Shown: positions 1,237-52,349 of the stretch, piece by piece | Position numbering within the stretch: the stretch's first letter is position 1 | Layout: each line of letters opens with the position of its first letter | Source: Kappaphycus alvarezii | Lineage: Eukaryota; Rhodophyta; Florideophyceae; Gigartinales; Solieriaceae | DNA length: 64,000 bases | Reading direction: 5' to 3' | Assembly: GCA_002205965.3 (NCBI GenBank) | Contig: NADL03000863.1 | Span: 124,001-188,000 of the forward strand | Translations under genes and position numbers: made by a program | The notes under the pieces: generated by a model | What the model was told of the DNA's origin: nothing | Seen by the model: the letters and a program-made list of their open reading frames with translations, nothing else | Database searches by the model: none

Positions 1237-1578
1237 TGTTCAACGAGACGAGACAAACGGACGCAAATCGACACAGTTGATCAAATGTTTAATGCATCTT
1301 CCAAATTCAACCTGCGAACCGCTTATTGAATGCGTTATGAAATGTCTTTGATTGTTAATGTTTATTCATGACTTTACTACATGTAATGCATCTACTCGGA
1401 CTGTGAAGACAGACAGTTAATGTTCACCTGGACTAGTACTTATAGCTATCTATGAGGTCTAAAGTATCAACTCATCCAAACACAATAAAAACAAAACAGT
1501 ACAGTCGTCTTTAGTAAATCTATCATTGTCAACCTTGCATCAAGTCTCACTTCCGTATCAATCGTTGACATACCAACC
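1237..1578 (+). repeat. Left LTR of the copia element
   Basis: Begins TGTTCAACGAGA and aligns along its length with the right LTR, including the block ACTAGTACTTATAGCTAT. The inner end is uncertain: similarity continues to about GACATACCAACC near 1580 and then stops. Confidence 0.85.
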
Positions 1579-1930
1579 CCGTATCATTCGTAGCATCGCT
1601 ACTGCTTGGTCTAAATCTAACAAGGGAATATTCGAAAGAAAACAAACTTGTAATACCAAAATTCAATGCTCACCCTACAGAAAGCTTTCGACTGTGGAAG
1701 CTTGGCATGGAGGCTGTTCTCGAGACAAAATAATGTCTGAGTATCGTTATTGGTGAAGAGGAGCGACCACAGGGCGATGATGATGATTCTCAGGTTATCA
1801 AGAAACAGCAGAACTTCGATAAGAGGAAGAGGAAGGCCTCAGCCATGCTCATTACCTCCCTGGGCGACAAGTCCCTAAATTCGTAGTAAAATACTCTAAA
1901 TCACCCAATGAACTTTGGACTACACTTTGC

Positions 1931-2722
1931 ATGAGGTACGCTAGTAAGAAAACTAGCAACAAACTCAGTTTACGCACTGAAGCATTTAGCAAGACAAATG
2001 GTCCGGAGCCTATGTCAGATCACATTGCAAATCTTGAAACTATCTTCGCACAACTCGGTGACGCAGGTCAACTTCTAAATGATTTGATGCAATTATCAAT
2101 ATTGATTTCGTCTATAAAAGGAGACAAAGACTATGAAGCAGTTATTGCGGCCATTACAACCATGGATGAAAACAAGACCACATGGGAGACTGTCATCGCT
2201 CGTTTAATGGAGGATTACAAAGAAGGGAAGAGCACTAATTACCCTCGTGATCTTATCGAAGCTGCTGTGAGATCCGCCGTGGCGAAAAAGAGGACTGCAA
2301 AGCAGGGAAAGCCAACGAAAACTGTTTGTGGATTTTGTAAAAAGCGTTGTCACTATACTGACCAGTGCTGGGACAACCCCGACGGGAGAAATTACAAACC
2401 AAATAATTGCAGAAAGTCTAAAGACAAGCATGCTGCAAATCCCCGTCTGGCAATGCCAGTCAAACAAAACAAACATGAATTGCAGACCGACGAAAACAGT
2501 GGTACAAATAAGAGTATTAAGTACGCAAACTGCGGAATGACTAAAGCTACTATCAATAGTCACCGAGGTGGAAGATCTGATCAAAGCGAGAGTTTCATAT
2601 TCGATAGTGGTGCTACTCACCACATGTGTTCCAACCTTGAACACTTTAGTCGAATCAAGTCTGTACCTGAGTTTAAAATCACTCTGGGAGATGATAGTGT
2701 TATCAAAGGAAACAAGATCTGA
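1931..2722 (+). pseudogene. Copia gag plus protease region (fossil)
   Basis: Open for 263 codons. The N-terminal two thirds resembles copia Gag (the UBN2-type region). A CCHC zinc knuckle follows near residues 133-146 (C-x2-C-x4-H-x4-C, starting CGFCKKRCHY). The C-terminal part starts an aspartic protease with the signature FIFDSGATHHMC, the usual copia form of D-S/T-G-A. It is part of the broken copia element and shows no sign of host use. Confidence 0.85.
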
Positions 2723-3008
2723 GAGGTCGATTTCTTCCTACATGACACTGACAACATGCATACGGAAGGCGTATGGCTAAGGTTGACGAATGTCCTTTAT
2801 ATGGAAGATATGGGTCTTAACCTACTGTCTATGAGTGCATTAGACGATCATAACAAACATGCAACATTCAAGAAAGGGTAATTTTTTTTTCTTTGACGGC
2901 AGTAATGACAAGCCTATAGGAAAAGGTCTTAAAAGGTACGACGGATTGTTCCAACTATTTGGGTCGATTGTGAAGCCAAATGATGCTAGCGCCCGAAACT
3001 GCTGAGCA

Positions 3009-3640
3009 GTGACGAAAACAAATGAGACTTGCTTGAGCCTATGGCATGAGAAATTTGGACACACCAGCTCTAGCATACTCGAGAGTATCGAAAATTCCGG
3101 AGACGTTACCGGAATATATTTTAAAGAAAATGCGTCTAAAACTGACTGCATCCCGTGTCTCAAGGGTAAGCAAACAAGAAACAAGTTCAATGGAAAGCTA
3201 GTCCCATCATCTATGGAAGTTGGAGATGTGATTTTCTCCGACGTGTGTGGGCCACTACACACACCTTCGTGGTCTAATACAATTTACTTCGTGACATTTA
3301 TTGACGGTGCCTCGGCTCATGTTTCTGTGTGTCCACACTTCAATCAAAAAAAGAGGCAACTAAAACCTTCATATGCTTCAAAGAATCGTTTGAATTGCAC
3401 TCTGGATACAAAATGAAGCGCTTACACACCGATAATGGTGGGTAGCTCGTCAATAATGAAATTAATTCGTTTTGCAACACGAATGGAATTGCTCATACTA
3501 CTGTTGCACCATACAATCCACAGTCAAATGGAATGGCTGAGAGAATGAACAGAACACTGCTTAACAAAGTACGCAGTATGCTATCGTATGCTTCACTTAG
3601 CAGCAAGTTTTGGGCAGAAGCTTTACATCATGCTGTCTAG
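3009..3640 (+). pseudogene. Copia integrase region (fossil)
   Basis: The start has the HHCC zinc-binding form of integrase (WHEKFGHTS then CIPCLKGKQ), followed by a DVCGPL block typical of the entry to the catalytic core. Downstream, reads near 3430-3640 give the THPYNPQSNG-like and AERMNRTLL-like blocks of the core. Broken, with no single intact frame. Confidence 0.8.
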
Positions 3641-4429
3641 ATACAGAATGTGCTTCCCGCTGGAGACCGTCGAGTAAGCCCCATGGAATTATTCTGCGGA
3701 AAAAGACCAGACCCTAGTCACCTGAGAAAATTTGGTTACTTAGTGCAAGAGCACGTGCCAGACGGGCGAAGAAAAAGCTTGAACCGAAATCTAGATCGCT
3801 CATTCACATTGGACACATTACTCCTACTGTTTCACGTGGATTTAGCCTGAGATCAGGAAGGGTTCATATCGTTCGCCATGGACGGTTTGATAAAACGATA
3901 TTTCCTGGCACTAGTAACTTTGAGAAAAATCCTCTGGTTTGACTGATAATAAGGGCTTGAACAGCTCAGAATCAATCCCTAATGGGGAAATCGAAGTAGA
4001 CGTCTCGAAGAGTGATGAAGAAAACTTGCCCGTGTCTGAACAACAGCCTGTACTTGAGCGTATACCTCTACTAGAAGAAGTCCTTGCAATGTCGCAACGT
4101 TCATGACGAAACCGCAGAGCCCGAAAAGTTTTGGACTTGTCGCAAATTCTACAAGCCCGAAAGTCGGCAGTGATGACATGCCATCTGTATCGCAGGCACT
4201 TGGTTCAAAAAAATCTGATGCGTGAACATCGGCTATCCATACTGAGCTTGAAACAATGAAGGCTAAAAATACATGGGAGCTTGTTTCGAGGCAAGAAGGG
4301 GTTAACATTGTACCATGCAAGTTTATCCTCAAAGTTACGAAAAACAGTGATGGAACTGTGAACAAATATAATGCTCGTTTCGTGGCATAAGGTTGTTGTC
4401 AAGGTGCATTCGATGTTGTAGAGACATTC

Positions 4430-5640
4430 TCTCCCGTCGTCGATTTTACTTCAGTGCGAGTTGCCCTAACTATAGCAGTCTTGAACAAATATGAAGTACA
4501 TCAGTTCGATGTAACTGGTGCCTTTCTCCACGGAGAAATTAACAGGCCCGTTTATATGATGCAACCTGAAGGTTTCGAGGAACCGGGACAGGAACATTTT
4601 ATCTGTAATCTGCGGAAAAGCATCTATGGTTTGAAACAAGCACCTAGAATCTGGTATAGACATTTCAAAACCTGTCTGGAGAGGCTTGTTTTTAATGCTC
4701 TCGTCCATTTCGACTGCATATATGCCAAGTCTGAGAAGGGAAGCGAATATATCTCGTCGTTTATGTGGACTACATGCTCATTATGAGCAATTGCCTTCGC
4801 CTGATCAGTAACCTTAAAAAATGTTGGTCGAGAACGTTAAAATCCAAGCCCTTGGTCCGGTCAAAGAATTCTTGGGGGTGAAAATAACGAAGCAGACAGG
4901 CACTTTCACTCTGTCTCAAAGTCACTACATTGAAAACATTCGGGCTAAGCATGGCATGCAAGACTACCATTCTATTTCTACTCCCATGGATCCACCTAAC
5001 TATATGGTTGTCCCTAGGAATGTCGAGCCCAGTCCTGAGTAGATTAGAAAAATGAAGGGCATACCATACCGTGAGGCAATTGGACAGTTATTGTATCTGT
5101 CATATCACACCAGGCCCGACATTGCTGTTGCTTTTGGTACGCTCAGTCGCTATGTCTCTAAACCAAGACCTATACATTGCGTTGGAGTCAAACGAATACA
5201 CCGCTACTTACGTGGTACAACAGACCATTGTTTGATACGTCTTCCGTCAAGCAACCAACTGACTGCATATGCCGACTCTGACTGGGCAAGGAGCTCAGAT
5301 CGAGCATCTATCACTGGTAATTTTTTGCAGATTGGTGGTTTTACAGTGTTTTGGAAAAGCGCCAACCAGCGCTGTACAGCGCTGTCTTCTATTGAGGCTG
5401 AGTATGCTAGCTTGTCAGATTTGGGCAGAGAGGTCTCATGGTTACGAAAGCTGCTTGGAGAACTCGGAGTGGTGCAAAAATCACCAACTACCATCTACCA
5501 GGGCAACATTGGTTCAATAGATTGGGCATCGGAAATTGGCCAGTTCTGTAAGAACAAGCATACAAACACCAAAATTCATCATGTCCGTGATCTAGTCAAG
5601 CAAGACACGGTTCGCATTGACTTTATTGAAACCAAGTAAA
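4430..5640 (+). pseudogene. Copia reverse transcriptase and RNase H region (fossil)
   Basis: 4454-4786 reads VHQFDVTGAFLHGEI and SIYGLKQAPRIWYRHF, both diagnostic copia RT blocks. 4821-5042 has the FLGVKITKQ block. 5052-5639 contains AYADSDWARSS and SSIEAEYASLSD, the copia RNase H signatures, followed by a tail near HHVRDLVKQ. Broken into several pieces. Confidence 0.88.
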
Positions 5641-5816
5641 TGCTTGCGGATATGCTAATAAAACCCCTCTACGGACCCAGACTTAAGCTTGATACACAAC
5701 GTTGGCATAACCAGTCATTGCTCGAGAAAGGGAACAATGATGGAGTCGCAACTTCAAGAAAACAATCAAAATCAATTGTTGCGATATAATTTTTATCGCT
5801 CAAACCGTTTTCGCAT

Positions 5817-5824
5817 AGAAGGGG
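5817..5824 (+). other. Polypurine tract of the copia element
   Basis: AGAAGGGG lies directly against the TGTTCGAC start of the right LTR, the position where plus-strand priming occurs in LTR elements. Confidence 0.75.
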
Positions 5825-6187
5825 TGTTCGACGAGATGCGACAAACGGACGCAATGAAATCATCACAATTGATCAAATGTTTAATACATCTTCCAAATTC
5901 AACCTGCTAACCGCTTTACTGAATGCGTCATGAACTGTGTTTGATTGTTAATGTTTAGTCATGACTTGGGGTTTTAGGGTTTTACATGTAATGCATCTAC
6001 TCGGACTGGGAAGAAAGAACGTGAATGTTCCCCTGGACTAGTACTTATAGCTATGTATGAGGTATGAAGTATCAAACTCATCCAGACACAAAAAATCAAA
6101 ACAGTACAGTCGTCTTTAGTAAACCTACCATTGTCAACCTTGCAAGAAGTCTTACTTCCGTATCAATCGCTGACATAGCAACCTTGT
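5825..6187 (+). repeat. Right LTR of the copia element
   Basis: Starts TGTTCGACGAGA and aligns with 1237-1578, with an extra short run around 5970. Its end is set by the shared ATGAAAAT that follows. Confidence 0.85.
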
Positions 6188-6481
6188 ATGAAAATGAGGC
6201 TATCTCTGCTTCCCCCGTCATCCTAATCATCTACCCCTTCCCGACCTCCTCGAAGATTACAATCTCCACGTCCTTCCCCAACTCTTCCCAGTCAACGCCT
6301 GATCCTCTTCCGTATGAGGTATATCCCTCATCACCAAACCTTCTGTAAACGACACTGTCGGCATTTCTCTCACCCCATACTTCACCACCCTTACTTTATA
6401 CCCGCACGCCCCCAGCACTGAACCCTATACGTTGGTCTTGGGCGCCATCCTACGCTACGGCCACCTCCCCTCCTTTGCCAC

Positions 6482-7207
6482 TGTCAGAGATAAATAAGCA
6501 GGGGAATAGATCTTCAGAGCTAATTACCCCAAGAAGGAGGTGTTGCAAGCGACAAAAGTGCTACCATGGTATAGTTGAACGAACAAAAAGGAGTGGAGAG
6601 GGAAGACAGTTAAATGGGCTACAAGCAAGTATGGAATGGACAGGGTCTACCACCTATGCTTAGTGACTAGCGTAAAATAAATTGTTCTTGGGTCGGAAGT
6701 TGACTCTCAACTTCCTAGCTATTTGAGACTGGGCTTGAATTTGTCTGCCAACTTGCTTGACCTCTCCATGAGGAAGCAGTTTACTCAGCTTATATAGACT
6801 TTTGGCTACCCGTAAAGTCCGAACAAAACTACAGAAGGTACCAGGAAATGCACAGAAACAATTTGTGTGGATGACATACTCTAAATCGAAAGATACTTAA
6901 GAAACTAACAATCTATGAGGTTCTCTTATTTCCCATTCCCTAAATCAGATCCAAACAACTCCTCTAAATATCCATGCTGCCCAAGAAGTCCCCCAAAATA
7001 TCTGGGAATGGCTCTCAGCTCTCTATTCCCTCCTGGGAGATATCTAGACTACTAAAGATATCTCCATCCGGTTCCATCGTAAGCACCACCTGTTCCATAC
7101 TCTCCGGTCCAGGCCCCACCAGTCCATCAGTTTCCGTGCCCCCTGTTCCCTCATCCACCACAACCACCACCACCACCACCACCTCCTCCTCCTCCTCCTC
7201 CTCCTCC

Positions 7208-7242
<35 letters not shown>

Positions 7243-8037
7243 CTCCTCTTCCTCCTCCTCCTCCTCTTCATCCTCCCATCCTCCTCCTCCTCTTCATCCT
7301 CCCCATCCTCCTCCTCCTCTTCATCCTCCCATCCTCCTGAGTCTCGAGCACTAGCTCAGGGCTAACCATTCCTCGAAGGACTCCACTTCCTCCTCCTCGA
7401 CTTTCTCAGTCTCATCCTCACTTACCTCCCTCGTCTCTTCTTCTATGAAGAGGCGGCAAATGAACTCGATGATTTGCTTCTTTGTTTGCCGCCGGATGTA
7501 GTCGTCGGCATCGGTTGGCCCGTAGGCGGCGAGACGAAGGCCATTGATGGGACGGGAAGGGCGGTTTTGGAGATAGGGACAGAGGGCGATTTGATGTCAT
7601 ATTTCTGGAAAAGGGATGAGCGGGTGTGTAGGGGGAGAGGATTGCTGAGCAAAATGATCGGAACGTTTAAAACTCGGAATAAAGGGGTTTCAATAAGCTC
7701 CCGGGGCAGGTTCTATATATTAGAAATAGGTAAATTAAATCTACAAGGGATTTTTTGTGGTAGTGCATTTGCCCCCTTTTTCTGAAAAAAGCGAATTTGG
7801 AGGAGGAAGTAAGCAAAAAGGGGAAAAAACTTGATTCGGGATCGATTTAGAGGTGTAGAATCTGTATAAAAATATCTAGATAAAATGGAAGTAAATTTGG
7901 AGAGAACTACGGTAATGATAAGCGAGATTCAGGAGGACGAGGAAGGACCGGAACTATAAGCAAATTTGGACAAGGAGAGGTAGTACAGTAAACTATAGGC
8001 TGTAAAGGACGGCGGCAAAAAAAATCTGCGCCTAACA
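6482..8037 (-). mobile_element. Solo LTR, long U3 type carrying an ORF (copy A)
   Basis: A 1556-bp unit bounded by TGT...ACA ends and flanked by the perfect 5-bp direct repeat GCCAC (6477-6481 and 8038-8042), so it is one LTR-like insertion with no internal region. Read on the minus strand, it begins TGTTAGGCGC, carries an ORF region in the middle, then a TATATAA box and an R-U5 half that aligns with the LTRs of the gypsy elements at 10 and 52 kb. It is diverged from the young copies, so older than element 1. Confidence 0.85.
6974..7640 (-). pseudogene. LTR-embedded acidic protein ORF region, copy A (fossil)
   Basis: Lies inside the long U3. The N-terminal part reads RPINGLRLAAYGPTDADDYI followed by RRQTKKQIIEF; then comes a Glu-rich tract encoded by a GAG/GGA trinucleotide expansion (plus-strand CCT/TCC run about 7147-7340), and last a C-terminal motif GDIFSSLDISQE. 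The same order is found in copies at 25.4, 45, 59.3 and 62.2 kb. The function is unknown: there are no catalytic motifs, and the high charge would suit a nuclear or nucleic-acid-associated role, but that is only inference. Broken. Confidence 0.6.
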
Positions 8038-8042
8038 GCCAC

Positions 8043-9982: not shown

Positions 9983-10699
9983 TGATGTGCGCAAATTAGC
10001 ACACGAAAAAATCTAGATGAGGACCATGATTGTATACAGTATCGGAATTGGGAAGATATTTTTACAGTTTTTGAATTTGCAAGATACTTTTTAATTTGGG
10101 TGAGTGTGGCAAATTCATCGGTTGATTTTTTCATTTTAGGACACGCTGTCATAGTAGATGTCAGTACAGTTCCAGGTTGTGGGTGATACTACGAGTGACT
10201 CTGAAAGGTCTATATAATGGCCGCATCAATTCCCACCCCTGGCCGATGGGTGGCTGGCATGGGTATGGCACCTAGATATTTACCTTGAGAAATATCTCTA
10301 ATAGTCTCTCTGGTTCACACGATTACCGTGAATGCATTTTGTGGTTATTAGTATGCTTGTTCGGACTTTAGGGGTAGCCAAAAGTCTATATAAGCTGAGT
10401 AAACTGCTTCCTCATGGAGAGGTCAAGCAAGTTGGCAGACAACTTCAAGCCAAGTCCCGAGTAGTAGGAAGTTGAGAGTCAACTTCAGACCCAAGAAAAC
10501 GTTTTCTTACGCTGGTCGCAGAGCGTCAGTGGTAGACCCTGCCCCTTTTATACTTGCTTGTAGCTTTCTCAACTCTCTTCTATATACACTCCCTTTTGTT
10601 CGTTCAACAATACCACGGCAGCACTTTTGTCGCTCGCAACACCTCCTTCTCAGGGTAATTGGTTCTGAGGATCTCCTCCCCGCCGATTTACCCCTATCA
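9983..10699 (+). repeat. 5' LTR of gypsy element 1 (U3 type I)
   Basis: Begins TGATGTGCGC and ends CCCCTATCA, with terminal inverted TGAT/ATCA. The U3-specific part runs to about 10350. From the GGACTTTAGGGGTAGCC block onward it matches the inner half of the long-U3 LTRs, and from GCAAGTTGGCAGAC onward it also matches element 2. Confidence 0.95.
10388..10394 (+). promoter_or_regulatory. TATA box of the LTR promoter
   Basis: TATATAA within GTCTATATAAGCTGAG. The same box is kept in most copies of this LTR superfamily (for example 17174-17180), just upstream of the shared R-U5 half, where a U3 promoter belongs. A second TATATAA lies upstream near 10210. Confidence 0.6.
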
Positions 10700-10701
10700 T
10701 T

Positions 10702-10715
10702 TGGTACTCTTGTGG
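10702..10715 (+). other. Primer-binding site of gypsy element 1
   Basis: TGGTACTCTTGTGG starts two bases after the LTR end, the usual place and form (TGG start, complementary to a tRNA 3' CCA). The priming tRNA should end in GTACCA; I did not assign it. The identical site follows the 5' LTR of element 2 at 52265. Confidence 0.6.
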
Positions 10716-11018
10716 AGGGGGTTGCACCCGAGGTATTCGAGTTGAGCAGTAGTAAGGAACACTTCGGGGGATTTCTTTTCTGTAATCATGGATCTCAACG
10801 CTGCTCGTATAACGTTCACAGGGGCAAGACTGAAGACGTTGAGGAGTTTCTTTACACATATGTCAACGTTGTGATGCGAGAAGGGCGATGAAGAGAAGGC
10901 CGCAAGTATCTTCGCCTATCTTCATGGTGACGCAAAGCACAAATATAAGTCCAAGTTTATCGACGGGTGGTCTCTTAACGGGAATGGGCGTAACTTCGGT
11001 GAGGTATGTGAGTGGCTT

Positions 11019-12518
11019 GTGAAAGAGTATGCTAAGGAGGTAGAACCAGATGAGATGATTCGTACCGCCATAGAGGCCCGGCTGAACTTCGACGATTTGT
11101 TAAGCTCATTGGTGTACTTGTGTGATCTTTATGAAAAGGCTGGGTTCAACGCCCAAGCCAAGTACGGAATGCTGCGTAAGGCGGCTATGGGGGATAAGCG
11201 GCTCTCCGATTTCCTCCTCATCAAGGGCCCTCACACTTTTGATGAACTGAAGGGTACCATAGTAGAATTTGTCAAAAATTCGGAGACGTTTCAGTCACTG
11301 AGTGAGGTACCGAGGGAAACCCGCACATCGATGTCTATCGTACATCCTGAAAAGAATTATCAAAGGCCGGCTACTAGTGCAGCGGCATTAGAATCTGTCA
11401 GGAGCGATGTCAAAAACTTGGAAGAAAGGTTGGAAACCCGATTCGATAATCGACTTGACATGATAACCTCGCAGTTGGAAAGCCTTACTCTTACCATTAA
11501 GAAGAACCAGTCTGGGGCCCCTAAGGCCGCAGAAGTCTGTTCTTACTGTCACAAGCCTGGACACTTTGCAAACAGGTGTCCTGATAATCCACATAGAAAC
11601 ACTCGTTGTGCAAAGTGCGGTCGATATGGGCATCATGAAAGTAACTGCTGGTCTAAAGACAACAGAAGAGCAAATTTATCGGAAGCAAGGAGTGAGTCAG
11701 GACCAGAGGTGAAAATCTTACAAAATAGAAGGGATCAAAGGTTGACGGATGCCGGTAACGTATCCATCGCTGAAGAGATTAGTCAAGTCAATGTGACAAA
11801 AAGGGATGGGGAAGGGAACATTTTATCGAAGAAACCTAGGCTAGAGTATGGAATGCTGGAGCATATCCCAGCACCTGTACCTCCTCGAACCAAGAGGTCT
11901 GATCAAGTTGTTCCAGGAGTGGGAGTCACTCCGGCCAAGAAGACGAAAAAGAGTAAGAAAGTTAAGAGTATCTCTAAGGACGTACTAGAGTATGTGAAGA
12001 GGTACAATTTGGTGGCTGAGCTTGCATCGGCCCCAACTGGGATAACGTTTGGTCAACTTTTGAGGGGCGACGCAGAGGATGCGAGAAAAGAACTCAAAAA
12101 AATTATCAGGTCTAATAAGTCCGCTAAGGGTAAGAAACTGTTTCTTCAATCGGCCTCGACAGCACCAAGACGTCTTAAGCTGGTACCAGTCAAAGTATTG
12201 GGTATGAAAACCCAAGCTCTCTTCGATTCGGGTGCTGTTCCAAACCTCATTTCAGAAACTTTGGTGACAGATCTAGGTCTCGAAATTACTCCAACGACTC
12301 GAAAAATAACTGTAGCGGATGGAACCGTCTCAAAATGCATGGGCACTGTTGACAAGGTTTCCGTGTTCTTTGGGGACTCTAAAGTTGATGTAGACTTTCT
12401 TGTCATGCCGGATCTCCCTTTCGATGCAATCATTGGCTGCCCTACCATGGAAAGACTAGGACATGCATTGACTTGGGCAACCAAATGGTTTCAGTTAATA
12501 TTGACGGCAGAACCGTGA
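11019..12518 (+). pseudogene. Gypsy element 1 gag and protease ORF
   Basis: Open for 499 codons. The first 150 residues are Gag-like. Residues about 150-165 look coiled-coil (VRSDVKNLEERLETRFDNR). Two CCHC knuckles follow: CSYCHKPGHFANRC and CAKCGRYGHHESNC. A lysine-rich basic stretch comes next (about residues 305-325, KKTKKSKKVKS), then a retropepsin-like protease with ALFDSGAVPNLIS and the matching AIIGCPTM. Gag therefore continues into the protease in the same frame. The real start is probably somewhat upstream of the first ATG of this ORF. Confidence 0.85.
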
Positions 12519-13003
12519 AGATGCCCCTGGATTTCGACAAAAGCACGCATCCTGAAGATTTAAAAGAAACGGACAGTGAAGATTTCACTTCTAGCTATGA
12601 CAGCGAAGATTCGGAACCAACTAACACTTTCGGAAGTGGAAAAGGGTACCCTCGGGGGTTAATGAACATGGCATGGGACGATTATGATTCCGGGTTTGAA
12701 ACAGATGACGACTGGATTCTAGGATAAGTTTGAAACCCGAATGTGTTTCTTTTTGCGATGATATCGAATCAAAGGACAGAATTCGGAGCATGAAAGAAGA
12801 TTACCTTTGCAAAGAAAATAAGAATACGGCGAATCCATATATGAAGATGTGAGCACGACGGAAGAGGTCCTTCAAAATATTGAGGTTGAGGATCAAGAAG
12901 AAAAAGGGCGCCAAATGGCAGAAATCCAAGGAAAAGTGCAGCACCTTCCCGCCCCCGCCTCACTGAAAATATCCGACATGTTAACATCTTCCGAAGTAAT
13001 TGC

Positions 13004-14318
13004 ATGGAGCGTTTCAGATTTAGACAAGCAAGTGTACCGGTTACTCACTCGTTCGAACTTACCGACACTCAACCGATTTACCACAAGCCTAGACGTCAAC
13101 CGCCAAAATATGACCAATTTATCTCAGAAAATGTTACAAGTATGCTGAAAAATGATATTATTCGACCAGTTTCATCCCCATGGTCGTTTCCAGTTGTGGT
13201 CGCACCAAAGAAGGATGGAAAGCTGCGTTTTTGCGTCGATTACCGACAACTGAACCAGAGAATGATACCCGATCGATTTCCGATTCCGAACATGGAGGAG
13301 ATCCTCGAGGACCTGAAGGACGGGAGATATTTCACCTCAATTGACCTTTACACTGGCTATTGGCAGATTCCATTGGATGAAAAATGTAAGGAAAAAACAA
13401 CCTTTACCAGCAAAGCCGGTACGTTCAGGTTCGAAGTGATGCCTTTTGGTCTCATGAATGCACCAGCTACATTCCAAAGAATGATGAACGAGGTTTTGAA
13501 AGGACTTCCATTCGCAAGAGTCTATATCGATGATGTCGTCATATTCTCAGAAACATTGGATCAGCACATCTCGCACGTCAAGACAGTTGTGGAGAGGATA
13601 TCGGAGTATAGCTTGAAAATTAAGTTGAGCAAATGCTTCTTTGCGAAAACTTCTATCCAATTACTCGGTCATATCGTCGACCAAGAGGGAATTAGAGTGG
13701 ATCCAGAGAAAACGAAAAAAATAGTTGGCACCAAGGCCCGCTTCAAAGACGGAGGTCCGAAGCTTCTTAGGACTGGCCTCATATTACAGAAGATTTATCA
13801 AAGATTTCGCCAAGACTGCAGCACCGTTACATGCCAGCACTACGAAGAACGGAAAATTTTACTGGAACAAGGAAATGGAAACTGCATTTCAGGAGCTTAA
13901 AGATAAGCTATGTGTCCCCCCAGTTCTCATGTACCCAGATTTCAAGAGACCATTCGTTGTGGAGACAGATGCCTCAGAACGGTCTTTGGGTGCCGTTTTG
14001 TCCCAAAAAGATGAAAACGGAAGACTACACCCTGTTCAATTCGCAAGCCGAACTCTGAATGACGCGGAAAAGAGATACTCAGTCTGCGAGAAAGAAGCGC
14101 TAGCTGTCGTCTTCGCGCTGAAAAAGTTTCGCGTATACCTTTTATCACTCGAGAAATTTGTCTTGATAACTGATCACCAGGCACTTAAAACAGCATTCCA
14201 AAAGAAGGATGTACATCACCGCTTGGCCCGATGGCTCGACATTTTCGCAGAATATCGGTTTGAAATTGTGTATAGACCCGGACGCAATAATCAGCCTGCG
14301 ATTACCTATCCCGCTTGA
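13004..14318 (+). pseudogene. Gypsy element 1 reverse transcriptase and RNase H region
   Basis: The RT has the classic gypsy blocks KLRFCVDYRQLN, FTSIDLYTGYWQI, FEVMPFGLMNAPATFQ and the catalytic YIDDVV, then LLGHIV. The RNase H part (13725-14318) shows VETDASERSLGAVLSQ, SRTLNDAEKRYSVCEKEALA and ITDHQALK. All catalytic motifs are visible. Part of a broken element. Confidence 0.92.
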
Positions 14319-14613
14319 GGGACGCACTGATTCCAAATGAAAAAGCTTCGGAGGACATCGTCGGAGTCGCCGAGTTGCAGTTGCCGAACGATAACGAGTA
14401 CGAAGCTAATATTCACGGACTGATCAAATTCCTCGATGGACTAGAAATGAGAAAGGTTGATCTTGAACACCGAAATTGGGTACGCAGGAATCAAAAGGCT
14501 TTTACATTGTGGAATGGGAAACTTTTCCGGCACACTAAAGCCGGTCCCCGACTAGTGGCCCCTTTGAAAGAAAGAATGAAGATCTTGAGGACTTTCCATG
14601 ATGAGCTAGGGCA

Positions 14614-15600
14614 TTGGGATCTCGAAACAACCAAAAATTCGTAACTGAGAGATTCTGGTGGCCCGGTATCCATAAGGACGTCTATAACTTCGTGAAAAGC
14701 TGCGACAACTGCCAAAAATTCACTCCAATACGGAAGTATAAGACAACTCTAAGTTTTCCAGTTTCCGGTCTCTTTGAAACCTTCTCAATTGACTTCGCGG
14801 CCCGTTCAAGGAAACTTCTTCCGGAAACAAATATCTCCTTATAGGGGTGGAACATCTTACTGGATGGCCAATAGCAGTTGCATCGAGGAGGCAAATGCTG
14901 AGGTGGTACTGAGATTCATCGAAAAAGAAATAATTGAACCGTTTGGTCTTCCAAAAAGGATCATCTCGGATAACGCCCTTTGTTTTACTGCAACTTCACT
15001 GCTTCGTTTTGGAAGAGAAAGGGATTCAGCTGAAGACCGTTCTCGCATACGCTCCTATGTCCAACGGGAAAGCGGAGAGGATGGTTGGAACCATCAAACG
15101 AGCAATATCGAAAACTATGTTGGAGAATGAAATCCAGTGGGAAGATGCCTTACCAAAAGTGTTATACGGCTACCGTCGAAGAAGAGGAAGAAATGGACGC
15201 TCACCATTCGAGCTAATGTACGGAAGGGCTCCTAGAATGTTACAGAGAGACATGGAAACAAATATTATCGATGAAGAGAGTAGGGAAGTTGAACTACTGG
15301 CCACCGAAGGCTGGAGATCACACCGCGCGCTAACACAGACAAGAAATAAGGATGCAGAACCTGCAGTCAGAACCTTTTCAGTTGGCTCTAAAGTACTTGT
15401 AGTACATGGAAAAGCAATGCAGCAGGCTGTGAAGTGGCCGGCCTTCCAAACCAAGTACTCGAACCCTTGCATCGTCACGGAGGAAAGACACCCGCACTAT
15501 CAGCTCTGTTCAAGCTCAGGGAAGAGATCAAGGAGGGCCATCCATGCACGTCGTCTGGTCCCTTACCATCAGAGGCCTGAAGAATTCCTTCTCACACAGG
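14614..15600 (+). pseudogene. Gypsy element 1 integrase region
   Basis: A zinc-binding end (FWWPGIHKDV with CDNCQKFTP) is followed by a catalytic-core entry (FETFSIDFA) and, downstream, APMSNGKAERMVGTIKRAI and the SPFELMYGRAPRML block that closes the core. After it comes a basic region ending near RRLVPYHQRP. There is no chromodomain. Confidence 0.88.
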
Positions 15601-15719
15601 ACTATGCGCAACCACGGGGCATACTCATCTTTAACTATAGAATGATTCCTATGGGAGGAAAAAGGGCCTGGGAATGGATCATCTCGGTTACGCGGGACTA
15701 CTACGAACTCCACGTAATC

Positions 15720-16740
15720 ATCCATTTCTACATTAATATATGCCTATGTTTTCGTACGTTGAACGGACCATTGCTACCTCAAGAAGATTTCCGACTATTA
15801 ATAAGAGTTCTATTTTCATTCCAAAACGGAAGGTTCACGGAAGCAGGTCCAGAGTTTGTGGAGGTAATATATCATTACTCTATAGGAAGATATGGAATGG
15901 TAGCTGCTGGAGACTTGTCGCAAACGTATCTGAATATTATCCGTCCAATTTACGTATTTCTCAAGAACAACCAAGACGTGCGACTGAGAGGTTACGCCTT
16001 ACCCCCGGATATGGAATACAGGCTGGTCCCGTATCCTCTATGGGAACCTTACGTTTCTCCGCCACAAATTGGGAACGTTGGAGGCGGCGAGGATCCTCCT
16101 GAAGCAGTGATGATGACCAGAGGAGGACCTTCAGGAGACAACAACCCGCCCAGAAGAGGTTCCGGTCGTCCCCGAGAGGACCTCGTGCAGGTCCCAGTAC
16201 GTCAGGAGCTGGTCGCGGCCATTCATCGGGACCGTCCACCACAACTTCATCTCTAGCTCTGCTTCACAACCATGCACAGCATACAGTCGGAAGAAGAAGA
16301 TTATCTTTTTGGCTGCGCAATATCTCCGAGGATGCGAACGATGCGCAGGTCATTTCTTATTTCATGATAAGCATCTGTTTATGTTTTAGGGCGCTACATG
16401 GACCGCACTTATCTTACGAAGATTCGTTCTTGATGATGCGCGTCTTCTTTTCTTATCGACATCCATTCCTCCGGCATCTTCCAGAAGAGTTTGCATATCA
16501 CATATATTTTTTCACTCTTGGAAGATTCGGAAGAGTCACGGAAGAAGAATGTATTCAACCCCACCTCGATGTGATCAAACCAATATATGAGGCTATGCTA
16601 CAAAGTGAGGTACCAGTAATGCGAACCTAATTTTTAGAGCATCATATTGGTAATCGGTTGCATCCGTACCCGTTTGAGAGACCATACATTTTATCAATAA
16701 GACAGCGAACACTAACGGAAGCAGAAGAAGAGCAGTGACG
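15720..16740 (+). pseudogene. Gypsy element 1 post-integrase module with duplicated unknown domain
   Basis: Two similar blocks of about 110 residues lie between integrase and the 3' LTR. Block 1 (about 15730-16070) reads ICLCFRTLNGPLLPQEDF, later YSIGRYGMV, IIRPIYVFL and RLVPYPLWEPYV. Block 2 (about 16365-16735) reads ICLCFRALHGPHLSYEDSF, FTLGRFGRV, VIKPIYEAM and RLHPYPFERPYI. They are separated by a Gly/Arg/Pro-rich stretch (GGGEDPPEA, RRGSGRPRED). I do not recognise the domain. Only the last few residues of block 2 have a counterpart in element 2, just before its 3' LTR. It could be an accessory or envelope-position protein, but no signal peptide or clear membrane anchor is seen. Confidence 0.6.
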
Positions 16741-16770
16741 AGTCGGGACGTTCGTCTTGAGCGAAGGGCG

Positions 16771-17488
16771 TGATGTGCGCAAATTAGCACACGAAAAAAA
16801 TCTAGATGAGGACCATGATTGTATACAGTATCGGAATTGGGAAGATATTTTTACAGTTTTTGAATTTGCAAGATATTTTAATTTGGGTGAGTGTGGCAAA
16901 TTCATCGGTTGATTTTTTCATTTTAGGACACGCTGTCATAGTAGATGTCAGTACAGTTCCAGGTTGTGGGTGATACTACGAGTGACTCTGAAAGGTCTAT
17001 ATAATGGCCGCATCAATTCCCACCCCTGGCCGATGGGTGGCTGGCATGGGTATGGCACCTAGATATTTACCTTGAGAAATATCTCTAATAGTCTCTCTGG
17101 TTCACACGATTACCGTGAATGCATTTTGTGGTTATTAGTATGCTTGTTCGGACTTTAGGGGTAGCCAAAAGTCTATATAAGCTGAGTAAACTGCTTCCTC
17201 ATGGAGAGGTCAAGCAAGTTGGCAGACAACTTCAAGCCAAGTCCCGAGTAGTAGGAAGTTGAGAGTCAACTTCAGACCCAAGAAAACGTTTTTCTTACGC
17301 TGGTCGCAGAGCGTCAGTGGTAGACCCTGCCCCTTTTATACTTGCTTGTAGCTTTCTCAACTCTCTTCTATATACACTCCCTTTTGTTCGTTCAACAATA
17401 CCACGGCAGCACTTTTGTCGCTCGCAACACCTCCTTCTCAGGGTAATTGGTTCTGAGGATCTCCTCCCCCGCCGATTTACCCCTATCA
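16771..17488 (+). repeat. 3' LTR of gypsy element 1
   Basis: Starts TGATGTGCGC directly after a purine-rich tract (GAGCGAAGGGCG) and ends CCCCTATCA. Near-identical to 9983-10699. Confidence 0.95.
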
Positions 17489-22558: not shown

Positions 22559-24079
22559 ATGAATTTCATAGCTAGATGTTTCAAACAACATTTGAAATCT
22601 TTTGAAAAGGGGGAACATTCTAACTATCGTCATGAAAATATTGAGGATAGTACCGAAACCATAATTGGGTTGGACCAGGAGTTCGTAGACGGCTTCAGCA
22701 ATTCCGATGGGCAAATAACAATCGACTCGATCAAAACCGCTATAAATGCCTCTGGTATCATATACTCAAAGGACCCACGTCTCTCTAGTTTGTCTGTCAG
22801 TTTGGAACAATGCGATCCTTACCGGCCATTAACAAAGGAAAAGTTTTTCCAAATATCTGAGGATAATTTTGCTTTTCTTCATAAAATAGCAACAGACGAG
22901 CTCGTTGTTACTAATTTTCCAGATTTTCGCAAACATATTATTCGCATTTACAACGAGATCGAGCCTGAGAGACAGGGTGCTACTGCAGACTACATACCAA
23001 TCCTTCGTGATGCAGACCCTGAAAAGTTCGCTGTCGCATTCTGCTCTGTTGACGGTCAGTATTTTGAATATGGTGATTTTCAAGAGGAATACAGTATTCA
23101 GAGTGCAAGCAAACCAATAACATTCGCTCAAACCATCGAAGAACAAGGGGTTAAAACCCTCCTTGATTGGTGTAGCGTGGAACCCTCGGGAAGGCCGTTT
23201 GATGATGGCACTCTTCTGCCAGACAATAGACCTTTTAATCCTATGGTCAACTCAGGTGCTCTCATGACAGCTGCTGTGCTCGCCGCTGGGCGTCCAGAGC
23301 TTTCACTTAGGGATGAACCCGTTGGGGCCGATCGGTTATACGGGCGAGAACTGTTTGAAAGTATCCTGCTTCCGCTTTGGAAGAGATTATCAGGAAACGG
23401 TATTGTCGGTACCATAAAGTTCTCTGAAGAAACTTTCTTCTCAGAGAGGCGGACAGCGGATAATAATATTTCGATATCGTATGGTATAAAAGCAAGGAAA
23501 GGTCTCCCTCCAAATGTGAAAATTGGTACAATGATTGACTTATACCTGCGGGCGTGCTCTATCACAGCGAACACGGGATGTATAGCAGTCACTGCAGCAA
23601 CTCTTGCAAATGGGGGAAGGAATCCTATCACGGGTGATCGAGTTTTCTCAGTTGACACGGTAAAAAATACGCTTTCGGTCCTTAGTTTTTGCGGGTTCTA
23701 TGATAACGCAGGGGAATTTTTCTTTTCAACAGGTATGCCCAGCAAATCTGGAGTAAGCGGTGTGACCTTTTTAGTGCTGCCAAATATAGGTGGATTCGCC
23801 TTCTTCTCACCAAGACTGAATGAGTACGGCAATTCGGTGCGCGGTTCTTTATTTGCAAGGAAACTGGCCGAGATGTTTACATACCACACTTTCGGAAATT
23901 TAACGTCCCACTGGTCAGGACACACTCTGGATCCAAACTTATGTTGTGAATGTTCTCGAAAGAGAGGTATCTCGCGGGACGGTGGGCAGTTCGGCGGCAA
24001 AATAGATCGAAATTTTGTTCATAAGTCGGTATTCGATAATATCCACAAGGGGGAACTGTTTAGGTTCTTTAATATTTGA
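22559..24079 (+). CDS. Glutaminase, animal-type (L-glutamine to glutamate and ammonia)
   Basis: 506 codons in one exon. It hydrolyses glutamine to glutamate plus ammonia (beta-lactamase-like serine fold). Residues about 38-140 match the N-terminal helical domain of animal glutaminases (DGQITIDSIKTAINASG, KDPRL), a domain not found in the short bacterial enzymes. The catalytic domain spans about 143-450. Visible active-site residues by analogy to human GLS: Tyr145, Ser182-x2-Lys185 (QSASK), Asn231 (NPMVNSGAL), Glu296, Asn303, Tyr329, Tyr381 and the Val399 gate (KSGVSG); GNSVRG follows. All key residues are present, so it looks functional. There are no C-terminal ankyrin repeats; instead a Cys/basic tail of about 55 residues follows. 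The first 20 residues are basic and amphipathic, possibly a mitochondrial presequence. The ATG is the first in frame. Confidence 0.93.
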   Translation: MNFIARCFKQHLKSFEKGEHSNYRHENIEDSTETIIGLDQEFVDGFSNSDGQITIDSIKTAINASGIIYSKDPRLSSLSVSLEQCDPYRPLTKEKFFQISEDNFAFLHKIATDELVVTNFPDFRKHIIRIYNEIEPERQGATADYIPILRDADPEKFAVAFCSVDGQYFEYGDFQEEYSIQSASKPITFAQTIEEQGVKTLLDWCSVEPSGRPFDDGTLLPDNRPFNPMVNSGALMTAAVLAAGRPELSLRDEPVGADRLYGRELFESILLPLWKRLSGNGIVGTIKFSEETFFSERRTADNNISISYGIKARKGLPPNVKIGTMIDLYLRACSITANTGCIAVTAATLANGGRNPITGDRVFSVDTVKNTLSVLSFCGFYDNAGEFFFSTGMPSKSGVSGVTFLVLPNIGGFAFFSPRLNEYGNSVRGSLFARKLAEMFTYHTFGNLTSHWSGHTLDPNLCCECSRKRGISRDGGQFGGKIDRNFVHKSVFDNIHKGELFRFFNI

Positions 24080-24761: not shown

Positions 24762-26306
24762 TGTTAACGCAGGCCTCAGTCATGGCTAGCAAGACTCGAT
24801 TACAGTAGCAGAACTAACGAGAAGACCTCAAAGAATATCACTCACTCCAAAAATAGTGACTGGTGCGCCGTATCACCCTTGAATCAACAGATTTAACCTG
24901 CATCGACAACAAACCGCATCAATTTGACGATGCTGATACTTGAAACAGGTACAAACCCATGCTTTTCGCTGAAGCGAAATATTTAACATCAAAAACGAGT
25001 CAGACAATGATAAAGTATCTTTCGTTTACACAAATCGCATACAACACCTCTGCTATGAATCCAAATTTACGGTATGGCTCCATTTTATTTTGTTTTTTAA
25101 GAATTCGTCCTCATTTTCAAAAAGAAATCTTTCGACTCGTGGTCCATTTCGTCCTTCAAATTCAGTTCCCATATTTCATCAAGCATATTTTTTATGGTTG
25201 CTCTGAATGCATGAGATTCAAAGCTGCAATCTCGTCTAGCATTTTTTACTACGCGGAACACCGTAGACGTTTTCGAAGAAATTACTCTATGCAAAGTTCG
25301 AGATCAACATCTTCGAAGCAAGACGTATCTCATCAACCATTCAATCCCCCACTCCAATTTTTCCCACAATATGACCAACCTCCGCCCGTCGCTCACCATC
25401 GCGAAGGCATACAAAACCCGCAGTCCCATCAACGATCTGATGTGTATGGCCAATAGGCCAACTGACAACGACGACGACAGAAGAATTAACCGGGAACGAA
25501 TTCCGGAGTGTTTCTATCGTCACTGCTTTGGGGAGGCAGAAAAGGCAAAGGAGCAGGCTGAGGTGTATGTGGAGGGATCGGAAAGTAAGGAACCTTGAGA
25601 GGAACCTGGGAAGTCAGTTGTTTACAACCGTGAAGAAGCCGGTGTAGAGGACCAAGACTGAATGAGAGAATATTCTTTGCTCCGGAATCCTTTGTTGGGG
25701 ATAGAGTCGACATTTAGGGTCTTTGGGAAGGATTAGAAGAGCTTGATATGTCTGGAGAAGCTATCTATCACTCTGGACCATCAGAATGAATTTTTTCGAA
25801 CTGTATTTGGGGTCTGGATACTTTGGAGAAACAATTTGGTTCTAGGCCCCAGGACTAAGATTGTGAAAAAAAATCTAGATATTCAATCTAATGTCATCTT
25901 TTATAATTATTTCTCGGCGGCATTATTACATCTTACGAATTCTATGGCACTTAGTACGTTTATTTCAAATTTTAGAATTAGCATAAACGTCTATGTGAGT
26001 CGAGTAAAATACTTACTCTACAAAGTAGAAGCATATTGGGAGACAGCTACTAATCCAAATACAACTAGTATAGAAGTTGAAAGTCAACTCCCGCCATAAG
26101 AAACATTTCTCTTTATCGCAAGTCCCTGAGCGTAGGTGGTACACTCTTCCCCTTTTTTACTTACATGTAGCCCCCTGCTCCATCGTCCTTAATCATTCCT
26201 TCTCATTCCTACAACCATAGTTCAGTAGCACTCTTGTCTCGTGCAATACCTCGGCCTTGGATAATTTCGCCCAAGAATATCATCTCTTGAAGACATATCC
26301 CTAGCA
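24762..26306 (+). mobile_element. Diverged long-U3 LTR with ORF (copy F)
   Basis: The R-U5 half at about 25990-26306 aligns with the LTR superfamily (GTCTATGTGAGTCGAGTAAA, GAAGTTGAAAGTCAACTC, GGTGGTACACTCTTCCCC, CAGTAGCACTCTTGTC). Upstream lies the related ORF (25371-25598), and near 25060 a CCAAATTTAC...TCCATTTTAT block like that of copy A. A TGTTAACGCAGGC at 24762 may be the start, giving 1545 bp, close to copy A. No target duplication was found, so the limits are tentative. The oldest copy here. Confidence 0.55.
25371..25598 (+). pseudogene. LTR-embedded ORF, copy F (fossil)
   Basis: 75 codons. SPINDLMCMANRPTDNDDD aligns with RPINGLRLAACGPTDADDY of the 62 kb copy, and the helix-like RRINRERIPECFYRHCFGE matches RRQTKKQIIEFVRRYFIEE in position and charge. 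DNA similarity is low while the protein pattern persists. Family of unknown function. Confidence 0.5.
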
Positions 26307-27240: not shown

Positions 27241-28879
27241 ATTCTAACATCAGCTACCGAACTAAAACCCCTGGTTCAAAGCATCACTCACCTTTCAAAT
27301 ATTAAAATACTCAACCGTTTCTCCCGTTTCAATATTACCTTACTGATAAAAGTGGTAGCTCTCGTCATAAACATCTCATAATTTCTTTGACAGAATCTTT
27401 TTCAGAAAATTTTCCATAGCTCATTTAGCTTTTCGGGGACTATCAGCGAAAGCTTCATGATAAGATCAGCCTTAATTTTCCTGTTCTTCACTGTTTAGAT
27501 AAATATCCATTGCAACCCGTTTATGGTCATATTTCGTATCTTATTTAATGGCGATTTTTTTAGAACGACTTGCCCAAATTTTGACAGATACTGGTTGAGA
27601 ATAATGCTTAAATTCAAAGTTACTTAGATTACAATTTTATTCCAGAAGAGATGAAAGCCATGACTGAAAAAGGGAATAATCACAGACCAAATGTTTTGTT
27701 TCGTACAATATATATCTTATACTTTGCTGAGAGGAATTAATCTATATATCTCTTAATTTTTAGAAATCTTTTAACAAGATTATTTCATTCATAGAAGTCA
27801 GCTGCAGACAACCCTATTTCAATCTTACAATTTATGAAATGTGAACTCGACTGAATACAATGGTAAAATGTCCGAGATTTGAGAAAACTTTCGCTCTAGA
27901 AGAGTTACCAATTCTGATATAGGATGAATTTATTGATTGTTGATTAACTCAGAATGCATAGTAGGAGCTGACTGAAGCTAGTTTTCGCTGTAAAATACAG
28001 ATTTGCGCCATATGTAATATACCGCACCCTAAAAATGCATAATTCAACCATCTTGTTCAAATAAAAGTTATTACCAACAATACAAGAAATGAAAAGGACG
28101 GAGGATCAAAAAAATTTTAATTTAGAAAGAAAATTATTGCATCGTATTGCACGAAGATATCATGGAACTGTAATGAAGGAATGGATTGGTTGGTAAAGTT
28201 TCGAACAATCTTATAAATTGCATCCTTAGATTGAACATATTCATAAGAAAAAGAAGTAATTAGAATAAAGTTAAAATACTGGTTGACTGAGAACCATGAA
28301 ATTTTGCATATGCTTATTTTCGTATCCATTTCGTCTTGGAGAGGAGAAGAAAAAAATAGCTGAGAAAATTAAGATTTCAATCGTTTAACTACTTGCATAT
28401 ACGAGCAAATTCAAAATAATTTTCACTTTTTTCAGTACACGTTTTGCAATTTAAAGTTCGCAAACCTTTATTATATATATTTGAAGTTAAAATTAATGGA
28501 CATGAATAAAATTAGATTCTATGCTTCACTTTTCCATAATAATTGTTTGTTTGTTGAGAATTTTTGTGATAGAAATAAAACGTATTCAAAAATTAAACAC
28601 TAATTTGGACAACAGATTTATTCAACAATTCATAGATATGTTTGGAATAATGAATACATGCTGCTGCTTCAAAGTAAACAATTCAACAAAAAATAATCTC
28701 TCTAAGTTACTTTTAATCTCAATGATTTACATTTAGAATTCCAAACAAAATATTCAGTGGAATATGAGATATAAATGATTTTTTGATTTTTTAAACAACT
28801 CGTATTAATTTTACTACTAGTCACAACTGTCCAATTTAACATTAAATATTAAATTAAACCTCATAAGGTTAAAAAATGT

Positions 28880-29115
28880 GGTTGGTTAATGCGTGCGGTG
28901 TAATGGTTGTTAGCCCTGCTAAAACGTTGCTACTACTAGGTGGTCACTTAGAGTACGGTTCAGTGAGCTTTCCAGCCGATTCAGACGTGTCTTAGAGCCC
29001 GCTCAGAAAGCACGAATCGTTGGAGGTGACCATTAACGCGGCATGTCGCAGAAGGAGAATGACCTTCCACTATGAACTATTACGTGAAAAACGGTGCTTA
29101 ATAGATCGCATTTGT
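28880..29115 (+). repeat. Family X copy inside the AT-rich block
   Basis: Reads HESLEVTINAACRRRRMTF, aligning with ALEVTTNAECRCRRMPRTF at 42.3 kb. Upstream it reads GVMVVSPAKTLLLLGG. This GC-richer patch lies in AT-rich surroundings. Confidence 0.5.
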
Positions 29116-35100: not shown

Positions 35101-35954
35101 CGTTTCTTACATTTTATTAAGAGGTATAGTTTTATAACAATTTGCAAAAAAACCGGGTGGCCTATTGACGTGAGTACAACGTAATGATAGAGTAAGAAAT
35201 AATTAGTACCACCCTTCTTTTAACAAAGCACTGAAACAGTACAGAAGAATATTAAATTATAAATTATCGCACAGAACGACGTTTTCAAAAAGAAACATTG
35301 AAAAAATACTCGAGGATCAAAATGGCTTAGCTATTTACTGAAAGACATCATACTGCATACAATGTAAAGCTTCCAACATGTGAAACTGAAATTTTAATGT
35401 TAAACAAATTGAAAAGCTCTGAATGTACGCAGATTATTTGGAATATTTAAATCTTAATCCGATAGTAGTTATATTCCTATCATCTTCTGTTGTTTGACAT
35501 AAATAATTCATTCTCGATAATTTTCAAAAAATTACTGACTGCAATTAGTTTCTCGATAAATTATTTTGCATCACGAGTTTTGATGATGGTTCAGTAGTTC
35601 TTCGTTATCTGGGAGATACTATAACTGTCAACAAATAATAAATGCATTCTCTTGGTCTTCCTGTAATCAATCTGCACTTAATACAACGGCAAACGGTTTA
35701 ATATCTTATGTAATTTCTTAACGCTTCTGCCTCCAGTACTAAAGCTTTTTTATCGCAGTACCATTAACTAGCCAGAAAAGCGAGTTTTGGACCTGACTTG
35801 TGTAAATTACTTTTTTTCCTTACATGAGGACAAATTGTATGATTCATTTTTTAAAGTAAAATAAACATTTTCTGTAATGTTTAGAGCTAGCATAAACTAT
35901 CCACAACATCTAATCTACATATTACTTCCTCTTTCAACATTTACGAGTGATTTA

Positions 35955-36145
35955 TTTCAATTGCACCGCACCCAGGCAATTCCGAGCTCAGGCTCCGAGG
36001 AACCAAGGCCAAATGGGTCTTTCGGATCTCCTCTCGTCGCTTCGGAGCCATCATGGTGTCGATTTTGTTTTTTGCCGCTCTGGAGTAATTACCATCCCTC
36101 GGCCCCAATGCACGTTGGGTCTATCTGTAACATAGACCTTTGATC
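35955..36145 (+). other. GC-richer coding-like island in the AT-rich block
   Basis: Two overlapping frames are open for 62-88 codons. One reads VDFVFCRSGVITIPRPQC, the other SSGSEEPRPNGSFGSP. The base composition contrasts sharply with both sides. I recognise neither frame; probably a transposed or residual fragment. Confidence 0.3.
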
Positions 36146-38395: not shown

Positions 38396-38475
38396 AGTAC
38401 AGTAGCTGATCAGAAAGTATTCGCTGCAGAATATATTTCATCTCTATATTATACGAATCTGCTTTAGTGGTGCGG

Positions 38476-38520
38476 TACCACTAGTATTTTCTCCTTTACA
38501 AGGAGAAAATACTAGTGGTA
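38476..38520. repeat. Perfect 21-bp inverted repeat with 3-base loop
   Basis: The arms 38476-38496 and 38500-38520 are exact reverse complements around TAC. As DNA it could extrude a cruciform; as RNA it would be a very stable hairpin. No flanking gene explains it. Confidence 0.85.
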
Positions 38521-38799
38521 GCGTTATCCTTACCGACATACAGATGGTTACAACGGTAACACTGATAGCCAGAAAGGATTAAACTGATTCGGAAAATAGA
38601 AGATAATTTATCGTTCAATTTAAATTTATCTCAAAAAATGTATAGTATAACCAAGATTGACTTAGTAAAGAGATTTTTAACGTTTTCGTTGTCTTCAGAA
38701 TTTCCGACAGGTGGGTGAAGGTCTAGAACTCCGTCCACATATTGTACAGAAAAGATATTTTTGAACGTTCCTTGCTCGACAAAAGGACATTCACTAGCT

Positions 38800-52262: not shown

Positions 52263-52349
52263 TTTGGTACTCTTGTGGAGGGGGTTGCACCCGAGGTATT
52301 CGAGTTGAGCAGTAGTACGAACACTTCGGGGGATTTCTTTTCTGTAAAC

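Follow-up and report, generated by a model that had tools for sequence, protein, structure and literature searches.

Long terminal repeats of a red-algal Gypsy family very probably carry a complete, selected protein gene in U3

Can the long terminal repeat (LTR) of a retrotransposon hold a protein gene of its own? The question is raised by a 64,000-nucleotide stretch of the genome of the red alga Kappaphycus alvarezii (contig NADL03000863.1, positions 124,001 to 188,000; hereafter the window), in which LTRs contain the remains of an open reading frame (ORF) in U3. In mouse mammary tumour virus (MMTV), a vertebrate retrovirus, the gene of the membrane superantigen Sag lies within the U3 of the LTR and is hence present in both LTRs; to our knowledge, MMTV offers the only precedent for a protein gene contained entirely in an LTR.

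Two window copies, A and D, consist on the minus strand of a long U3 followed by about 340 bp that are 81-92% alike to the ends of the window's short Gypsy LTRs. The original prediction took both for single LTRs, and this was borne out by their LTR ends, perfect 5-bp target duplications (for A, GCCAC at 6477-6481 and 8038-8042, GTGGC on the minus strand) and one R-U5-like region each; with such duplications, neither copy can be a fragment of a longer element. The ORF region it had placed in their U3 was also recovered by tblastn, as an N-terminal and a C-terminal block in both copies, though interrupted. Its claim that the same protein pattern recurs in copies B, C and F holds for B, which has both blocks, and only in part for the probable counterparts of C and F, where tblastn recovered the N block only (25371-25562 and 59219-59437); as it had stated, these two are diverged. 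The copies are as follows, types 1 and 2 being two subfamilies described below.

6482-8037, minus strand: copy A, a type-1 ORF-bearing solo LTR of 1556 bp with a perfect 5-bp target duplication
7360-7581, minus strand: remains of the N-terminal block of copy A (GPTDADDY, RQTKKQIIEF; tblastn, 86% to protein P0001)
about 7162-7340, minus strand: acidic tract of copy A between the N and C blocks, read from the sequence
6967-7146, minus strand: remains of the C-terminal block of copy A (GDIFSSLDISQE), with an in-frame stop (tblastn, 77% to P0001)
6789-6796, minus strand: TATATAAG box of copy A, 3' of the ORF, a candidate promoter box of the genomic RNA
6491-6826, minus strand: U3 end and assigned R-U5 of copy A, common to short-LTR Gypsy elements (85% to 10357-10690 and 17144-17479)
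61439-62818, minus strand: copy D, a solo LTR with U3 ORF remains, flanked by ACCAC/ACCAC (minus-strand reading)
61907-62419, minus strand: N block (62168-62419) and C block (61907-62071) of copy D, with an in-frame stop in each (tblastn)
44402-45811, plus strand: copy B, a type-1 LTR from its TGTTAGGCGC start, cut in U5 (sequence matches)
44921-45129 and 45205-45420, plus strand: N and C blocks of the U3 protein in copy B (tblastn)
25371-26306, plus strand: probable copy C, old, diverged, type-2-like LTR remains, with the N block, an R-U5-like match at 26029-26171 and an LTR end near 26306 by eye
59219-59437, minus strand: probable copy F, a diverged N block with an in-frame stop (tblastn); type-1 U3 start matches from about 59913 downwards

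Every one of these ORFs is broken by stops or frame changes, the N block of copy A lying out of frame with the usual start, so the window on its own shows decayed copies. A further candidate LTR copy on the plus strand (38418-40007) was dropped, as copy A has no match there.

Matches to the window copies were then sought across the 336-Mb assembly (884 contigs). Copy A gave at least 45 matching rows at 40 places among the best 40 of 5456 candidates, with A itself counted and some rows being halves of one copy. Terminal motifs delimited 39 LTRs, of which 20 have perfect 5-bp target duplications and 6 have duplications with one mismatch; 13 of the 39 abut a PBS or polypurine tract. The original prediction had called for full elements that begin and end with this LTR. 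A partner LTR was looked for at six places beyond contig C549, and five full-length Gypsy elements bounded by ORF-bearing LTRs were found (C549, C651, C876, C811 and C693), with the ORF blocks in the U3 of both LTRs in each. A relative with the ORF outside the LTR, which would have spoken against that prediction, did not occur among the loci fetched; ORF-less relatives exist, such as the short-LTR Gypsy element of the window. Differences within the LTR pairs amount to 3 of 1474 aligned sites in C549 (two copies 7.5 kb apart), 12 of 1512 in C651, 12 of 1523 in C876, 36 of 1478 in C811 and 35 of 1462 in C693. After the 5' LTR, all five elements carry a PBS, TTTGGTACTCTTGTGG (one change in C693), and before the 3' LTR a polypurine tract, TAAGTGCGGGGGG (a variant in C693). 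Perfect target duplications flank C651 (GAGAT) and C549 (GATTG); no clean duplication was found in C876, C811 or C693. The 5' LTR of C693 follows a polypurine tract and therefore seems to be shared with a neighbouring element. For C625, no partner LTR was present within the stretch fetched.

Several loci display unusual arrangements of these LTRs. On C736, the element formed by L036 and L017 has a short 5' LTR that lacks the ORF and a 3' LTR that carries it, and is a recombinant between two kinds of LTR. Five C blocks of the U3 gene follow one another on one strand in steps of 15.0, 7.5, 7.5 and 7.5 kb (G000:C810:14682-52489), suggesting a tandem array of elements that share LTRs. Two type-2 LTR copies, 99% alike, lie in opposite orientation about 500 bp apart (G000:C782:678002-680520). 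L041 and L043 have identical target duplications and flanks on two contigs and are one insertion present twice (allelic contigs or duplication); copy counts are thus not fully independent.

Outside the window, intact ORFs are present. The N block occurs in 50/50 genomic copies that have the C block (LTR pairs, three window copies and duplicated contigs each counted singly), and 11 of these 50 are open from the ATG to the usual C-terminus; the remaining 39 are not open end to end. L037, open without an ATG, and L044, which reads beyond the usual stop, are outside the 11. In-frame stops are absent within the N block in 42/46 copies and within the C block in 43/47. Eight of the 11 intact copies are solo LTRs with perfect duplications (L020, L021, L022, L023 at 4457, L026, L027, L039 and L052), that of L027 being CCCCC and hence saying little; the others are a 5' LTR (L010), a copy beside a polypurine tract (L024) and an undelimited copy (L023 at 8267). 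In the copies looked at, the ORF starts about 440-465 nt into the LTR. A complete protein gene is accordingly located inside U3, the position occupied by MMTV Sag.

A diverged query disclosed the type 2 subfamily, with 150/150 scored matches passing (best 150 of 5653 candidates). Ten of the scored matches, picked for long open frames, comprised seven ATG-to-stop proteins of 162-206 aa, two frames without the usual start and one mosaic ORF (L061). The latter joins a type-1 N-terminus to a type-2 C-terminus, so the two gene types, judging from this junction, recombine. Over 141 ungapped codons, the DNA of types 1 and 2 is 63.7% alike and their protein 56.0%.

An ORF in such a setting need not encode anything: U3 might be purine-rich regulatory DNA whose open frames arise from GAG/GAT repeats. 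The acidic tract is indeed a GAG/GAT trinucleotide repeat, in which in-phase length change needs no selection, and the linkers between the blocks are in phase in 30/50 copies and out of phase in 20/50; the interruption of every window copy is equally in line with this reading. We compared it with a coding reading by codon models on fixed trees, using copies that had not been chosen for intactness (gapped tblastn matches dropped, identical and short rows removed, leaving 34 of 46 N and 37 of 47 C blocks). The 34 distinct N blocks gave an omega of 0.419 (2dlnL 45.0), against 1.02 (2dlnL 0.03) and 1.39 (5.1) in the other frames. The 37 unselected C blocks gave 0.615 (2dlnL 8.5), with 0.81 and 0.91 in the other frames; a first subset of 16 copies per block had yielded 2dlnL values of 40.2 for N and 2.0 for C. 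The 19 intact copies of both subfamilies, whose choice for intactness excludes stops and frameshifts and leaves missense changes, gave 0.347 over 141 codons (2dlnL 110.9), with 0.313 for type 1 (11 copies; 2dlnL 49.2) and 0.438 for type 2 (7 copies; 25.0). Within this set, omega was 0.204 for the N-terminal 55 codons (2dlnL 100.4; other frames 1.49 and 2.18) and 0.412 for the 68 codons of the C part (2dlnL 22.5; other frames 0.71 and 1.23).

In the 11 intact type-1 LTRs, the parts outside the ORF gave omega values of 0.545-0.887 (2dlnL 0.17-5.42, six tests), which puts the method's neutral baseline under 1. Values for the N block and for the intact set fall far short of this baseline, and the C block of unselected copies falls within its range. 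A chance frame is ruled out by the codon models in this frame as compared with the other frames and the non-ORF parts of the LTR. The original prediction was at stake if the rate ratio came close to 1; it stays well away from 1 in the N block (0.42, 34 copies) and the intact set (0.35, 19 copies), and is less clear in the unselected C block (0.62). Pairwise dN/dS had a median of 0.285 for the N block (851 pairs) and 0.486 for the C block (638 pairs), the pairs not being independent of one another. Between types, codon positions differ by 0.305, 0.280 and 0.504, the third most. With constraint confined to one frame and lying outside the acidic tract, and with two subfamilies of such low DNA similarity keeping start, blocks and end while third positions differ most, we regard the absence of a protein as extremely improbable. 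The U3 frame is, as far as these substitution patterns tell, under purifying selection, and we have very little doubt that the U3 of this large family's LTR holds a complete, selected protein gene.

The depth of the constraint bears on whose gene it is. Pairs below 5% distance have pN/pS values of 0.55 (N) and 0.77 (C), as compared with 0.43 and 0.41 in deep pairs; mutual nearest pairs (8 N, 6 C) reach 0.79 and 0.78, on just 22 and 4 changes. Weaker constraint in close than in deep pairs fits a gene that is selected during element replication and decays afterwards. A host gene captured in the LTR, or an LTR gene kept for the benefit of the host, would account for a protein without a match to any retroelement family in the libraries searched. 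Against such an origin, all copies that could be delimited are LTRs, constraint weakens among close copies in the manner of an element gene, 39/50 copies are not open end to end, and no stand-alone copy outside an LTR occurred among the best 150 of 5653 candidates, a search that was not exhaustive. We therefore consider a host gene very unlikely and treat the U3 gene as one of the element.

The U3 protein is 162-233 aa long with a pI of 4.05-4.18, and runs from a basic N-terminus through an acidic tract to an acidic-hydrophobic C-terminus. This layout recurs in 19/19 intact copies: the first 53 residues have a net charge of +4 to +9 and the whole protein -30 to -81, and the last 45 residues carry a net -6 to -13 together with 13-17 of FILMVW. 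All type-2 copies except L054 carry VIVISDSSDEDE or variants of it, a stretch that we take to resemble a SUMO-interacting motif. Two structure models are of low confidence (mean pLDDT 48.7 and 48.8); both place a helix near residues 32-54 and a short one at the C-terminus. Searches of Pfam, NCBIfam and PDB disclosed no relative above cut-off, and the weak Pfam matches, several of them nucleolar families, all lie over the acidic tract. Protein databases yielded none among 7274 candidates and, in a second search, 2 of 7985 at E 0.01 that share only acidic low complexity; the library includes few red-algal proteomes with annotated retroelements, so absence of relatives there is weak evidence.

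TATA-like boxes lie both before and after the ORF. Downstream, TATATAAG starts 130-131 nt after the last codon in 11/11 intact type-1 copies and is also present in the short LTR and in 3/3 type-2 LTRs with fetched 3' parts; the position of the U3/R border is inferred. Upstream, the TATA-like TATTTAAA lies 84-118 nt before the ATG in 17/19 intact ORFs, with flanks that differ between the types. As a single short motif, an 8- or 9-mer common to the two types, TATTTAAA argues weakly for a promoter; it is not rare for two stretches of 260 bases to have an 8-mer in common. No clean target duplication was found in the three type-2 LTRs checked.

The window also holds three elements or LTRs of a short, ORF-less kind.

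9983-17488, plus strand: full-length short-LTR Gypsy element (g1) with LTRs of 717 and 718 bp, 99.3% alike, target duplication GCGTC and no ORF in U3
51634-57434, plus strand: second Gypsy element with another short U3, no match to the U3 ORF, target duplication CAGAT
48760-49480, plus strand: short solo LTR without the ORF, target duplication ATATT

The internal region and R-U5 of g1 are like those of the ORF-bearing elements, and it is through this relative that the Gypsy order of protease, RT, RNase H and integrase was found: Pfam matches identify aspartyl protease (3.4e-11), RVT_1 (6e-36) and RT_RNaseH (1e-39), and the integrase is represented by an rve_3 match below cut-off (E 0.002). The internal region of C549 is 90-92% identical to g1 up to about 16055-16068 in the window, and no DNA match between the two was found from there to the 3' LTR, which suggests that lineages have exchanged their 3' ends. 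The short U3 of g1 is not unrelated sequence, as type-2 LTRs match the g1 LTR both before and after the ORF (84% at positions 1-185 and 85-87% from 290-331 to the end), and the ORF itself is absent from between these matches. The g1 LTR thus looks like an ORF-deleted derivative; because the gene is common to both ORF-bearing types, with one of which g1 groups, a loss in g1 is the simpler explanation. The likeness of its LTRs marks g1 as recent, indicating that ORF-less elements have moved. In C549, the most alike LTR pair, the usual ATG is out of frame with the rest of the ORF in both LTRs. Together with the recent, ORF-less g1, this makes the gene dispensable in cis. Upstream of the 3' LTR, at window 14934-16256 and beside L009, L014, L016 and L030, a coding stretch of ~100 aa lies past the integrase, in two diverged copies by eye (..ICMCFQTIHGAHLTREDSVLMLRVFF.. 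and ..INICLCFRTLNGPLLPQEDFRLLIRVLF..), possibly a third ORF; its first copy had no Pfam match.

What might the protein do? We lean towards a selected U3 gene whose product is a nuclear regulator acting on the family's own LTRs, a reading that, the models being poor, draws on charge pattern and analogy. The ORF sits entirely within U3 and 5' of the TATATAAG box, the presumed promoter box of the genomic RNA. It would be expressed from a separate promoter early in U3 (TATTTAAA), and the genomic RNA would carry it as well, at its 3' end. The product would be a mainly disordered nuclear protein, most likely a transcriptional activator or a factor relieving silencing. A U3 accessory protein acting outside transcription, by binding RNA or histones, assembling particles or dampening the host response, and placed like MMTV Sag or lentiviral Nef, is a possibility to which we give distinctly less credence. 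The evidence for a selected U3 gene serves it equally, proteins that bind histones or nucleolar partners often have long acidic tracts, and several of the sub-threshold Pfam matches are nucleolar; the separate TATA-like box, the basic N-terminus and an end both acidic and hydrophobic are at least equally in keeping with a regulator.

Known systems offer partial parallels. Like Sag, the algal gene sits inside U3 and so in both LTRs; it differs in belonging to a red-algal Gypsy element and in encoding a strongly acidic, mainly disordered protein. Foamy virus, also a vertebrate retrovirus, has a Tas protein with an acidic activation domain, encoded by a gene not wholly inside U3. Pfam includes both a Sag and a Tas/Bel model. 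No Sag family appeared among the P0001 matches at E 1, nor a PDB match, and no Tas/Bel family among the Pfam matches of the U3 protein. In foamy viruses, the product of the extra gene, Tas or Bel1, activates an internal promoter and the LTR (PMC517496, PMC8670036). The likeness to Tas concerns the proposed working only, the algal protein being an activator by analogy; we infer a gene placed like Sag, working like Tas and belonging to neither family. Retrosat2, RIRE3 and RIRE8 of grasses have long LTRs and an extra, fast-evolving ORF0 of unknown function, which lies upstream of the gag-pol ORF and, in the portion of the article available, is not placed in the LTR (PMC3485330). In crapaud of Podospora, diverged family variants are confined to the 5' half of the LTR, recalling the exchangeable U3s of the red-algal family, and the accessible part of that account describes no LTR-encoded protein (PMC10787394). 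No LTR-encoded protein family of a retrotransposon was met among the listings and abstracts of the mostly non-subscription literature searched, red algae included.

If the regulator reading holds, supply in trans from solo LTRs, which keep the gene, could sustain ORF-broken and ORF-deleted elements and let them keep moving. More tentatively, and with considerable doubt on our part, each LTR could be a gene unit complete in itself, promoter and ORF included, for a trans-acting family regulator. Solo LTRs would then form a dispersed multigene family, possibly of thousands (the best 150 of 5653 candidates were scored), and ORF-deleted elements like g1 would live on solo-LTR protein, a matter of autonomy in regulation and not in enzymes. 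A selected LTR gene in a red-algal Gypsy element would mean that this arrangement also arises outside vertebrate retroviruses. Solo LTRs would turn from relics into possible protein genes, missed where annotation masks LTRs. ORF-bearing, ORF-broken and ORF-deleted LTRs with a common R-U5 and internal region offer a natural comparison for the effect of the protein.

Other features of the window were noted alongside. A glutaminase gene forms a single open frame of 506 aa at 22559-24079, with its best named matches in the red algae Gracilariopsis, Gracilaria, Agarophyton and Pyropia; a tRNA scan and a plasmid search with this glutaminase led nowhere. The region 28001-38000 is AT-rich (GC 0.30-0.34, against 0.38-0.49 in other 2-kb windows). 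Copia-type remains extend over 1237-6183, with a gag-like ORF at 1931-2722 (Pfam), an ORF at 5052-5639 that looks by eye like an RNase H end, and LTR-like repeats at 1237-1578 and 5825-6183 that are 86% alike.
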